From NCBI GenBank assembly GCA_002733575.1, contig NVWB01000003.1, positions 39,197 to 103,196 of the forward strand: a DNA stretch of 64,000 nt, in the 5' to 3' direction. The DNA comes from Blastopirellula sp. (GTDB lineage Bacteria > Planctomycetota > Planctomycetia > Pirellulales > Pirellulaceae). The notes under the pieces are model-generated. The model did not search any database, was not told the origin of the DNA, and saw only the letters and a program-made list of their open reading frames with translations. Below, piece after piece: positions 7,328 through 24,294 of this stretch (position 1 is its first letter; each line of letters starts with the position of its first letter). The position numbers were made by a program, and so were the translations under genes.

Positions 7328-7820
7328 GTAATCTCGCAAATTCAATCCTGGGAACAGTCTTGCTTGAGGCAATGCAGAGCCAAGCAACCCATTCTACGGG
7401 GGAGATGATAGTATCGTCAACTTGCTGGTGGCAATAAGTGAATGTATTAAAGTAGTGTAAACCATGTGCTTATAACTACTTAAACAAAACAGAAAAACGT
7501 GGAATGAAATCTAAGATGCCGCTCGACTCGACAAAGTTGCAGGGTTTTATAAATAAAACGTAAGAGAACAGCCCCAATTGGCACATCTGGCTGAGAGTAT
7601 CTAACCCTTGAGATCGTGGAGATGATTTTTTTGAGGCATTTTTGCAGGGGCGAAAACAATCATCTGGTATGTTGAATGTGAAACAACTTTGGATTTGAAA
7701 ATCTGTAGGTCAGTGCTGTGCCTGACGGAGATTGAGAACCGACACCACTTCATAGTCAGGCACAGCACTGACCTACGTCAAATACAATTGGAGCCTATTT
7801 TATTCTAGGCTCACCGCAAC
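7328..7820. other. Intergenic region between divergent genes, containing a REPIN-like element
   Basis: No gene is seen. The AT-rich stretch presumably holds promoters for the flanking divergent genes, but no convincing -35/-10 pair was picked. The only clear structure is the 72-base inverted-repeat element at 7705-7776, described separately. Confidence 0.5.
7705..7776 (+). repeat. REPIN-like palindromic element, copy 1
   Basis: Two perfect 22-base inverted arms (7705-7726 and 7755-7776) flank a 28-base centre. Each arm starts with the outward-facing tetranucleotide GTAG followed by an imperfect hairpin (GTCAG, a bulged T, GC-TGT-GC, CTGAC). This is the layout of REP sequences mobilised by RAYT transposases and of REP doublets (REPINs). 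The same element occurs at 20166-20237 in inverted orientation, with 16 identical bases at one side of the centre. No RAYT gene is in the window. Confidence 0.85.
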
Positions 7821-8402
7821 GTGTACCCTCTTGTTGACGTAGTCAACCCAGTTTGCGAGCAAACTTGGCTACCCGATTTCGGTGATAGAATCAAAGGAGC
7901 GAGTTACTTGGAATACGAAGAGTTTTGCAGTAACACAAATGCGGAACGCACTGTTTGGCAATTAAAAAAATGGCCCACCGTTGTGTGGATAGCCTTGGGC
8001 TTGAAAGAGACGCTCATCTATTGCGGTGCATTATCAGTAGTGCTCGCCCCATGTTTGATACTTGCCGCCTATGCTCTGAGCACACAAAGATTTGGGTTGT
8101 TAGTTTGGGTGGCATTTGCTTTATGGGGATTTTGGTCAAGCAGCACCGGCCCCACGGGTATCGGGTGCGTCGCGTCGATGATACTAGCCATCATCGGCGT
8201 AAGCAGTTCAGTGATTCTTCAAGACCGTGTTTTGTTTGCTGCCGGGATCATTCCAGGTGCAACATGGGTTTGTTCATGTGCAGTCATGGGAACAACCGCT
8301 TCTTACTTGATCGATGCGTTATGTGCTTCAAAGGAAACATTCGACGAACTTAGGGCTCGTGGACTTTTGTTTAAAGGATGGGAGACGGAGAATTTGTCTT
8401 GA
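7821..8402 (+). CDS. Membrane protein of unknown function
   Basis: The 193-aa frame has about four hydrophobic segments between residues 52 and 165 (VVWIALGLKETLIYCGALSV, VLAPCLILAAYAL, FGLLVWVAFALWGFW, ASMILAIIGVSSSVIL, AAGIIPGATWVCSCAVMGT). A soluble tail follows (SKETFDELRARGLLFKGWE). The GTG at 7821 is the first possible start; a TTG before LEYEEFCSNTNAERTVW (about 7909) is equally possible, since no in-frame ATG lies near the N-terminus. A plus-strand frame at 7955-8353 is a shadow. The family is not recognised. Confidence 0.55.
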   Translation: MYPLVDVVNPVCEQTWLPDFGDRIKGASYLEYEEFCSNTNAERTVWQLKKWPTVVWIALGLKETLIYCGALSVVLAPCLILAAYALSTQRFGLLVWVAFALWGFWSSSTGPTGIGCVASMILAIIGVSSSVILQDRVLFAAGIIPGATWVCSCAVMGTTASYLIDALCASKETFDELRARGLLFKGWETENLS

Positions 8403-18693: not shown

Positions 18694-20094
18694 ATGCGTT
18701 GCAGTATTTCATTGAGATTCATCCCGCTCTGTTTATTATTACTCGCAGGTTTTTCTACCGAGATCCTGGCAAAAGAAACCCCGCCAAAAACCATCGCCAG
18801 CTTCGGCGTTATCGGCGATGGCATGGCAGATGATACTGAGGCCATCCAACGGGCCGTCGATTCCAAGCTGGGTGATATCTGTTTCCCACGGGGTGTTTAT
18901 AAGCTCACCAAGACGATTGTCATTGACTTAGATCAGCTAGGGCCAACTTCTCTGATCGGCACAGGCACCGCCACCATCGAGATGCACGGCAGTGGGCCGG
19001 CGTTTCATTTTATTGGTACGCATCTCAAAGGCACCGCTGCACCTCACACGTTTGAAGAAAAAGTATGGAAAAACCAACGGACGCCGATAGTGCGAGGGAT
19101 AGAGATTGTCGGCCATCATGCAGACGCCAATGGAATTGAAGCCACTGGAACGATGCAACTAACAATTAGCGAAGTCGTCATCCGCCACACGCTGCATTCT
19201 ATTCACTTAACCCAGCGTAATCGCAATGTGATCGTCAGCAATTGTCATCTATATGAAAATCGTGGCGTAGGGCTCTACCTTGATGACTTGAGCTTGCACC
19301 AAATCAACGTCATCGGCAGCCATATTAGTTATAACAACGCTGGTGGAATTGTGGTGCGAGCTGGAGATGTTCGCAACTTGCATATCACCGGCTGTGATCT
19401 CGAAGGCAACATGGGCGACGCTGATGCACCGTCGACTGCCAACGTGTTGATTGACTGCACCGATGGTTCAATCGGCGAAGTTGCCATTACTGGCTGTACG
19501 ATTCAGCATACCTACAAGGGCAAAGATTCGGCCAACATTCGATTCATTGGCCCTAGCAATAAGCGAAGCTTCACTGACGAACAACGCGATGGGAACATCA
19601 CCATCAGCAGCAATATCTTGAGCGACACCCAGTGCAATATCGACATCCACAAAATGCGGGGCGTGGCCATTACGGGCAACACCATCTGGAAAGGATTTCA
19701 GCACAACGTGAAACTGACGGGCTGTACGAGTGTCGTGATGACAGGAAATACCATGGACCGGAATCCAAGATATGGCTATGGAGACGGAAAGAAATTTGCC
19801 AACGCGATTCTCTTAAACTCATGCACCGATTGTATTTTTGCCAACAACTTGATCTCAGGCGTTCGATCCCCAGAAGGTGGCGTTCGCATTAAGAACTGCA
19901 AACGACTCAATCTCAATCACTGTACGATCGTGAACTGCGATGTGGCCAGCATTTGGGCCACTAATGTTTCAAACAGCATTATCTCTGGCTGCATTCTCGG
20001 GCAAGACGATGTCGAAAAAACAGACTGGAAACCACTGGTCCTTGATAAAGCCAGCGCGAACCAGAAGAGCAAAAACCAGATTCAATCGAACTAA
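18694..20094 (+). CDS. Exported right-handed beta-helix protein (pectate-lyase-superfamily type)
   Basis: The 466-aa product has a signal peptide (SLRFIPLCLLLLAGFSTEILA). The family's opening block 'KTIASFGVIGDGMADDTEAIQRAVDS...GDICFPRGVYKLTKTI' follows, as in pectate_lyase_3/polygalacturonase-like proteins. Residues about 150-450 are short repeated rungs rich in G-N and I-x-G-C patterns (ITGCDLEGNMGD, ITISSNILSD, VVMTGNTMDRN), which make the helical solenoid. Acidic catalytic residues of GH28 are not clearly conserved, so the enzymatic role is uncertain. A polysaccharide substrate outside the cytoplasm is likely. Confidence 0.87.
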   Translation: MRCSISLRFIPLCLLLLAGFSTEILAKETPPKTIASFGVIGDGMADDTEAIQRAVDSKLGDICFPRGVYKLTKTIVIDLDQLGPTSLIGTGTATIEMHGSGPAFHFIGTHLKGTAAPHTFEEKVWKNQRTPIVRGIEIVGHHADANGIEATGTMQLTISEVVIRHTLHSIHLTQRNRNVIVSNCHLYENRGVGLYLDDLSLHQINVIGSHISYNNAGGIVVRAGDVRNLHITGCDLEGNMGDADAPSTANVLIDCTDGSIGEVAITGCTIQHTYKGKDSANIRFIGPSNKRSFTDEQRDGNITISSNILSDTQCNIDIHKMRGVAITGNTIWKGFQHNVKLTGCTSVVMTGNTMDRNPRYGYGDGKKFANAILLNSCTDCIFANNLISGVRSPEGGVRIKNCKRLNLNHCTIVNCDVASIWATNVSNSIISGCILGQDDVEKTDWKPLVLDKASANQKSKNQIQSN

Positions 20095-20165
20095 AGCATT
20101 TTCAATTTCACTGTGCCAAGTGGTTTTGCATCGGGTAGCACCGCCGACGACTGTATCCAATACCC

Positions 20166-20237
20166 GTAGGTCAGTGCTGTGCCTGACGATGAAGCACTAT
20201 CGGTTCTCAATCTCCGTCAGGCACAGCACTGACCTAC
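20166..20237 (-). repeat. REPIN-like palindromic element, copy 2 (inverted relative to copy 1)
   Basis: The arms at 20166-20187 and 20216-20237 are identical to those at 7705-7776 and again flank a 28-base centre. The reverse complement of this centre begins GGAGATTGAGAACCGA, the same 16 bases that begin the centre of copy 1, and both continue with TTCAT after 6 variable bases. The element therefore has a direction and the two copies point opposite ways. It lies 71 bases after the beta-helix gene. Confidence 0.85.
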
Positions 20238-20279
20238 GGAGAAAAATAGAGACCGGTCTAACTTGATTCCGTGTGAACT

Positions 20280-20534
20280 CTAGTCTGCCTTAAACAAAGT
20301 CGTAATCACCGAAAGCGGAGTAGAGACCGAGTGGTCGGCCTCGGTCATTACTTCCAAATGTGCAATGAGTTGCGGCAGTTGATCGCCGATAATCGGAATG
20401 CCGAGAACCGTGCCGAGGACCAGTATCCCGGCCCCTTCGACAACGATCATTCTCATGAATTGAAGATAAATACTGTCTCTTCGTTTTTTACGTTTTGGTT
20501 TAGTTTGGGTTTGTATTTTTCGTCGTGTTGTCAT
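20280..20534 (-). CDS. Small single-TM protein with a basic N-terminus
   Basis: The 84-aa product starts MTTRRKIQTQTKPKRKKRRD, a very basic segment, followed by a hydrophobic stretch at about 28-50 (MRMIVVEGAGILVLGTVLGIPIIG) and a polar tail. I chose the ATG at 20534 because GGAGG lies eight bases upstream; the ATG at 20549 overlaps that site. Function is unknown. The positive N-terminus suggests a cytoplasmic, possibly nucleic-acid-contacting, side. Confidence 0.65.
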   Translation of the reverse strand: MTTRRKIQTQTKPKRKKRRDSIYLQFMRMIVVEGAGILVLGTVLGIPIIGDQLPQLIAHLEVMTEADHSVSTPLSVITTLFKAD

Positions 20535-20793
20535 TTCACGATCCTCCATGTTTTAAAGGCAAAGCACAGCGTTGTGTGTTCCCTTGTGTGATGGAGATTG
20601 ATACGTCTAACGATTCGATTGGTTCGGCCAATTCGCAAAAGTAATCGGCTAGCAGAAGCAACAACTTTCCTTCTATTTCATTGCTAGCAACAGGTCCGCC
20701 CTGGCAACCGTTGAGCGGCATCGTTTGCTATCTGCGTTGCCATCATGCTAAACTAATCATTCATGGTTCCATTACTATCAAAGGCAGCCCCTC

Positions 20794-24105: not shown

Positions 24106-24294
24106 GGGTGCCACTGGCTTCGCCAGTGTGAAGTGCAAATAATCTGTTTGTGTATATAAGTTCTCGAAAGACATGGACCCAAATCAACAGACTCAGACTC
24201 AGTTTCTGTTTTTTGATAATACTGCTCTCATGCTCAACGAATAGTTGTTTTTGTGCCTCACTCGGATTCTGCACTGGCGGAGCCAGTGGCACCC
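24106..24294. repeat. Inverted pair of REP-like hairpins
   Basis: A 23-base unit at 24106-24128 (GGGTGC then CACTGGC-TTC-GCCAGTG) recurs in inverted orientation at 24272-24294 with one mismatch in the hairpin loop. The two enclose 143 bases without a credible gene. Each unit is a short 5' tag plus a perfect 7-bp hairpin, the layout of REP sequences. The tags point outward as in the 72-base REPIN-like elements, but the hairpin sequence is a different class. Confidence 0.75.

Follow-up and report, generated by a model that had tools for sequence, protein, structure and literature searches.

Three kinds of element already known resemble the repeats described here: REPINs, GTAG REPs and TIRtrons. 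In the available text of Bertels and Rainey (2011, PMC3116915), excision of REPINs in Pseudomonas fluorescens is inferred from reads. Planctomycetes are named among the hosts of GTAG REPs in the available sections of Di Nocera et al. (2013, PMC3733652), where it is also recorded that genes for RAYTs (REP-associated tyrosine transposases) can be absent from genomes in which REPs occur. We therefore do not take a cognate RAYT in the same genome to be strictly defining for a REPIN. In the parts available of PMC8266576, TnpAREP cleavage is placed at a CT 5′ or 3′ of the REP, and the Escherichia coli enzyme is described as binding single-stranded GTAG hairpins.

The window analysed here, the whole 64,000-nucleotide stretch (C378:39197-103196), belongs to a 9.25 Mb genome in 438 contigs that is 88% complete. 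Within it lies an intergenic, hairpin-forming repeat of 72 bases, copy 2, together with a related repeat, copy 1 (Table 1). We read this element as a REPIN, with a probability of about 0.82: two inverted, GTAG-tagged REP hairpins on either side of a directional 28-nt spacer, forming a miniature non-autonomous element that was probably mobilised by a RAYT. Each arm carries a GTAG REP hairpin, the two REPs form an inverted doublet, many extragenic copies are present, and REPs of the same kind surround RAYT genes in other genomes.

Table 1. Coordinates of copies 1 and 2 and of neighbouring features, numbered within the window
Feature	Position	Strand	Remarks
Second element, left inner remnant, 36 nt	7669..7704	+	94% identity to the contig C406 copy
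Copy 1, arm 1	7705..7726	+	
Copy 1, directional centre	7727..7754	+	
Copy 1, arm 2	7755..7776	-	
Second element, right outer arm (GGGTAGC, two hairpins, AAGAGG)	7827..7874	-	60 bits; left outer arm missing
ORF, 466 aa, right-handed beta-helix or pectate-lyase-like (by eye)	18694..20094	+	Ends 71 nt before copy 2
Copy 2, arm 1	20166..20187	+	GTAG tag and bulged REP hairpin
Copy 2, directional 28-nt centre	20188..20215	-	Minus strand reads GGAGATTGAGAACCGA...CTTCATC
Copy 2, arm 2	20216..20237	-	Second REP, inverted
Small convergent ORF, 89 aa, putative gene	20280..20549	-	Ends 42 nt from copy 2

The first-pass annotation had described the arms of copy 2 as identical to those of copy 1, and its centre as matching that of copy 1 only after reverse complementing. 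Both descriptions, and the coordinates, are correct. The arms of both copies are the 22-nt sequence GTAGGTCAGTGCTGTGCCTGAC, inverted and perfectly reverse complementary, and the 28-nt centres match only once one of them is reverse complemented. The centre of copy 2 then reads GGAGATTGAGAACCGA-TAGTGC-TTCAT-C and that of copy 1 GGAGATTGAGAACCGA-CACCAC-TTCAT-A, so that they differ at four of the six bases annotated as variable and at the last base. In copy 2 the perfect inverted repeat extends slightly beyond the annotated arms, to 25 nt on each side (20164-20188 and 20215-20239). On its left flank (20130-20165), copy 2 has GGGTAGCACCGCCGACGA, part of which, GTAGCACCGCCGACGA, recurs near the RAYT gene on contig C346 (L052); this is perhaps another repeat family.

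Genome-wide counts ruled out a chance or local similarity between copies 1 and 2. Allowing up to three mismatches, the arm that they share (class I) was found at 62 places, 52 of them exact, and a reversed-pattern control gave none; the four such arms in the window compare with 0.01 expected by chance. Counted by site, class I comprises 23 doublets, whose centres measure 27-29 nt, together with 16 solo arms, among which the one on C137 is truncated by a contig end. A seventeenth solo, a chance arm with five mismatches (L043:8914), was dropped. A second arm class (class II, GTAGGTCAGGCTGTGCCTGAC) is one base shorter than class I and forms a hairpin without a bulge. It was found at 69 places at the same threshold, again with none in the control, and gave 27 doublets distinct in sequence (identical doublets collapsed) and 13 entries for solo arms, those on C178 and C43 being cut by contig ends. 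The 50 doublets of the two classes (class I by site, class II by distinct sequence) thus represent about fifty distinct copies, a count inflated by segment duplication or assembly redundancy, because some copies have flanks in common (C14 with C272, C72 with C328, and C15 with C43). On contig C65 (L043:4376-5647) two solo arms, each with a centre, lie around a single ORF. Both centres have the same strand orientation, and the arrangement is either a composite or a coincidence. A transposase gene between these arms was ruled out, the ORF encoding a 356-aa protein that is TPR-like by eye.

The centre is the asymmetric part of the element. Of the 15 bases of GAGATTGAGAACCGA, 13 or more are kept in 21 of the 23 class I doublets; the other two, C375 and C378a, are the only ones that lack the shared centre. 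When the 23 class I cores were given random starting orientations and aligned, the mean forward-minus-reverse score was 14.8, and none of 20 shuffled sets exceeded 1.74. For 22 distinct class II cores of 24-32 nt the corresponding values were 9.0 and at most 2.26. The score difference exceeded 3 for 21 of the 23 class I cores and 21 of the 22 distinct class II cores. The proposal that the elements are not plain palindromes, and have a conserved asymmetric core, is therefore borne out. The accompanying claim that they insert in either orientation is true and says little, because the arms are symmetric. By eye, the class II centre (about GGGAATTGCAAAACCAAnnTTGCTTCAnC) aligns with the class I centre, and one class II doublet (L201) bears a class I centre. 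CTTC occurs in the last 12 bases of the forward centre in 22 of 23 class I copies (0.4 in shuffled sequences) and in 16 of 23 class II copies (0.6 in shuffled sequences). That both arm classes retain it near the 3′ end of the forward centre suggests that the polarity of the centre may come from a nick site within it. This interpretation is weakened because all 23 class I centres also have CT on their reverse strand (14.4 in shuffled sequences); the class II figure is 8 of 23 (10.3 in shuffled sequences). When the ends of solo arms were compared with a C|T cut at the end of the core, no single position fitted.

Selection acts on the small hairpin of each arm. The class I arm consists of GTAG followed by a hairpin of 7 bp in which one T is bulged and the loop is 3 nt long, at -4 kcal/mol as DNA; 9 of 200 shuffled sequences fold equally well, and the hairpin is kept across all 62 arms. 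Counted as sequences and not as events, 8 of the 11 substitutions in these arms fall in the loop (binomial P 1.3e-5), and of the 48 substitutions in 67 class II arms 38 lie in the stem and 2 in the tag. The remaining 8 are in the loop, which shows no excess in this class (8 of 48, P 0.38). Compensatory changes, which the first-pass annotation had suggested looking for, were present inside the hairpin of the individual arm; none were seen between the two arms of a doublet. In class II there are 12 compensated cells within arms, 11 arms having changed from C-G to T-A and one from T-A to G-C. L191, L192 and L207 carry the double change in a single arm, which breaks the arm-to-arm duplex and keeps the small hairpin. 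In class II the arms of one doublet change independently, and in the two classes together the arms differ from each other in 16 of the 50 doublets.

The better conservation of arms than centre had been attributed to selection or recent spread. Among the five copies of the copy 1 subfamily, variable columns number 0 of 44 in the arms and 4 of 28 in the centre, compared with 50 of 140 in the flanks (left, 22 of 48 in four copies; right, 28 of 92). As the arms are invariant and the flanks variable, recent spread alone is insufficient, and selection or homogenisation is needed. A greater decay of solo arms, expected from P. fluorescens, was not clearly seen in either class: exact arms made up 12 of 16 in solos and 40 of 46 in doublets for class I, and 8 of 13 and 36 of 54, respectively, for class II.

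The 147 genomes searched included none of the same genus. The exact or near class I arm was present in one of the 60 genomes of the first search of relatives, namely its own genome. Outside its own genome it was found in one, the Planctomycetota MAG Dive96_bin10.66 (G060), which has 17 such arms with other tails, none in doublets and none with the core described above. The looser pattern GTAGGTCAGN3-9CTGAC matched 41 of the 147 genomes, own included, where single matches may be due to chance; eight other genomes had 5 to 62 matches, compared with at most one for the reversed control. RAYT genes lie between inverted GTAGGTCAG arms in G060 (C252) and G121 (C165), and a broken gene is so placed in G103. 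The G060 case was one of 12 transposase loci scanned; the other two emerged when RAYT places in 11 genomes were compared by eye with the matches listed for the looser pattern, and were then checked. Most RAYTs of these 11 genomes were not paired in this way with a listed match. The two intact bracketed RAYTs each reach 187 bits against NF047646 (cut-off 80). A RAYT suspected between arms on contig C2 of G136 was ruled out, being absent there.

No cognate RAYT with such arms was found in the 88% complete assembly of the genome itself. Its two RAYTs above the cut-off were ruled out as partners: neither is flanked by such arms, and they have other ends (GGGTGCCATGC...). In the window, another repeat-like element, 189 bp long at 24106-24294, has inverted ends, GGGTGCCACTGGCTTCGCCAGTG, that are 96% identical; ends similar to these, GGGTGCCA, flank the two RAYT genes of the genome (C298 and C346). 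At L085, L089 (C106), L088, L093 (C433) and L081 (C89), fragments matching only the two ends of the C346 RAYT adjoin each other, an arrangement like that of copies with internal deletions. On contig C123 (L049:1402-2021) a 150-aa IS200-type transposase lies between inverted GTAG-CCAGGGAATTTATTCCCTGG hairpins and is a further GTAG system in the genome.

Copy 1 is nested in a decayed second element (7669-7874), the whole form of which is about 188 bp, with outer arms of the structure GGGTAGC-hairpin-hairpin-AAGAGG. The outer-arm pattern gave 69 matches in the genome, compared with 6 for the reversed pattern; four of the 69 (C150, C168 and two on C369) do not belong to the family by eye. In the 30 outer arms (26 distinct) given loci among these 69, the hairpins covary: both sides are changed in 38 cells compared with 12.6 in shuffles, and the covariation score is 0.273, compared with 0.109 for shuffled and at most 0.076 for slid versions. 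The 18 outer-arm pairs listed comprise ten without a REPIN (182-190 bp), four with one (215-256 bp), one of 141 bp, a 263-bp chimera and two L039 rows that are a false pairing. After subtraction of the REPIN (71 or 72 bp), the four filled elements measure 184, 179, 152 and 144 bp; divergence of the inner parts of the second element prevents an exact empty site from being defined. An outer-arm model matched 22 of the 147 genomes, own included, at E ≤0.001. Among 44 transposase loci, outer arms bracket RAYTs in L238 (G118 C19) and L098 (G060 C79), and G014 C140 (L253) carries a 643-bp element with one 170-aa RAYT (115 bits) between two outer arms. Inverted terminal repeats thus surround a RAYT-like gene in three other genomes. 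No RAYT bracketed by outer arms was found in the genome itself (G000). We read the second element as a RAYT transposon family with gene-less copies in this genome.

Of the 50 doublets, the 44 with enough flank were examined for placement; 43 of these lie outside ORFs of at least 150 aa, compared with 495 of 754 random positions that fall inside ORFs. By a crude ORF rule, the neighbouring ORFs are convergent in 16 cases, tandem in 17 and divergent in 2 of the 35 decided cases (9 undecided), and copy 2 itself lies between convergent ORFs. Such sites would suit an RNA element selected by the host, a hairpin at the 3′ ends of genes, readable on both strands, that terminates transcription or protects mRNA ends and is kept for the benefit of the host and not through mobility. 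The whole 72 nt of copy 2 can form one hairpin (about -29 kcal/mol with DNA parameters; z-score -9.8). However, neither end of copy 2 is followed by a run of T, the arms of a doublet show no compensation for each other, and related REPs are linked to RAYTs in other genomes. Conservation of the small GTAG hairpin arm by arm is more in keeping with each REP being recognised by itself than with a single long RNA hairpin. We consider the RNA element improbable.

We think it still less probable that the REPINs are passengers only, copied along with the larger double-hairpin element and without mobility of their own. Eleven class I elements (copy 1, nine other doublets and one solo) do adjoin an outer arm, four class I copies lie between two intact outer arms, and inner flanks are common to five copies. 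Nevertheless, the other class I copies have no outer arm, among them copy 2, at which none was found; ten outer elements of 182-190 bp lack a REPIN; and the arms are much better conserved than the flanks that would have moved together with them.

The REPIN interpretation leaves the RAYT to be accounted for: the copies were most likely spread by one that this genome has lost or that is missing from its assembly. As a Y1 HUH endonuclease, it would bind the folded GTAG hairpin in single-stranded DNA, cut near it and re-insert the doublet. The flanks of the copies show no target duplication, a repeat of at least 2 nt being present in 1 of 49 compared with 3.2 in shuffles. A palindromic target was ruled out, there being no excess. 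In the flanks of 67 class II arms the seventh base outward from CTAC is T in 75% (background 24%) and the first base outward is a purine in 92%; this bias is possibly a trace of target choice or of cutting. Class I flanks have T at the seventh base in 36%, and the class II pattern was not seen there. Known RNA families were excluded, with none in the window and one unrelated match in eight loci. L038:997-1043 matches the Acido-Lenti-1 RNA with 37.6 bits (gathering score 37).

A more specific proposal combines two ideas, that the centre is a nick-site module whose polarity picks the REP to be processed, and that REPINs use the double-hairpin RAYT element as landing place and vehicle. We regard this combination as rather unlikely. 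If true, the polarity of the centre, with CTTC on one strand between symmetric arms, would make REPIN transposition directional. The REPINs of this planctomycete-like genome now have a clear anatomy, with two sister arm classes, bulged and perfect, and a directional centre. With this conserved centre and a candidate nick site, it becomes testable how an asymmetric, single-strand mechanism remakes a symmetric doublet. The nesting of REPINs in a double-hairpin RAYT element represents a meeting of two such families in one genome.

Literature searches with 11-mers of the arm and the outer arm gave nothing related by title among the matches listed. A search for REPIN with 'planctomycet' as whole words, a form that misses 'Planctomycetes', gave no match, and a wider search brought up PMC3733652 and PMC6006769. 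The class I arm sequence was not found in the running text available of Di Nocera et al. (2013, PMC3733652).

As far as the available text of Bertels and Rainey (2011, PMC3116915) describes them, the REPINs of P. fluorescens SBW25 are, like those reported here, extragenic inverted REP doublets of about 70 bp that are linked to RAYTs, with arms better kept than the spacer and singlets beside doublets. They belong to another phylum and have a different REP sequence, and the well-kept directional spacer sequence distinguishes the present elements from them. Compensation between arms is described there and was not seen here, and a cognate RAYT was not found in our assembly. The GTAG tag, the small hairpin and the dimers with sometimes-conserved spacers agree with the GTAG REP families and REPtrons in the available sections of Di Nocera et al. 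(PMC3733652). In the TnpAREP systems of E. coli, S. maltophilia and Marinomonas, according to the parts available of PMC8266576, hairpins that are bulged (group 2) or perfect (group 3) likewise follow GTAG. Here the bulged form (class I) and the perfect form (class II) occur in one genome, and the CT-type nick site in the centre is putative. With its inverted two-hairpin ends around a RAYT-type gene in other genomes and its gene-less copies, the second element resembles the TIRtrons and their TIRYT transposases, and also the double inverted repeats that accompany some RAYT genes in P. putida and P. fluorescens, as described in the same sections of PMC3733652. It differs from the TIRtrons described there in its GGGTAGC- and AAGAGG-bounded ends with covarying stems, and in that some of its copies enclose a REPIN of another family.
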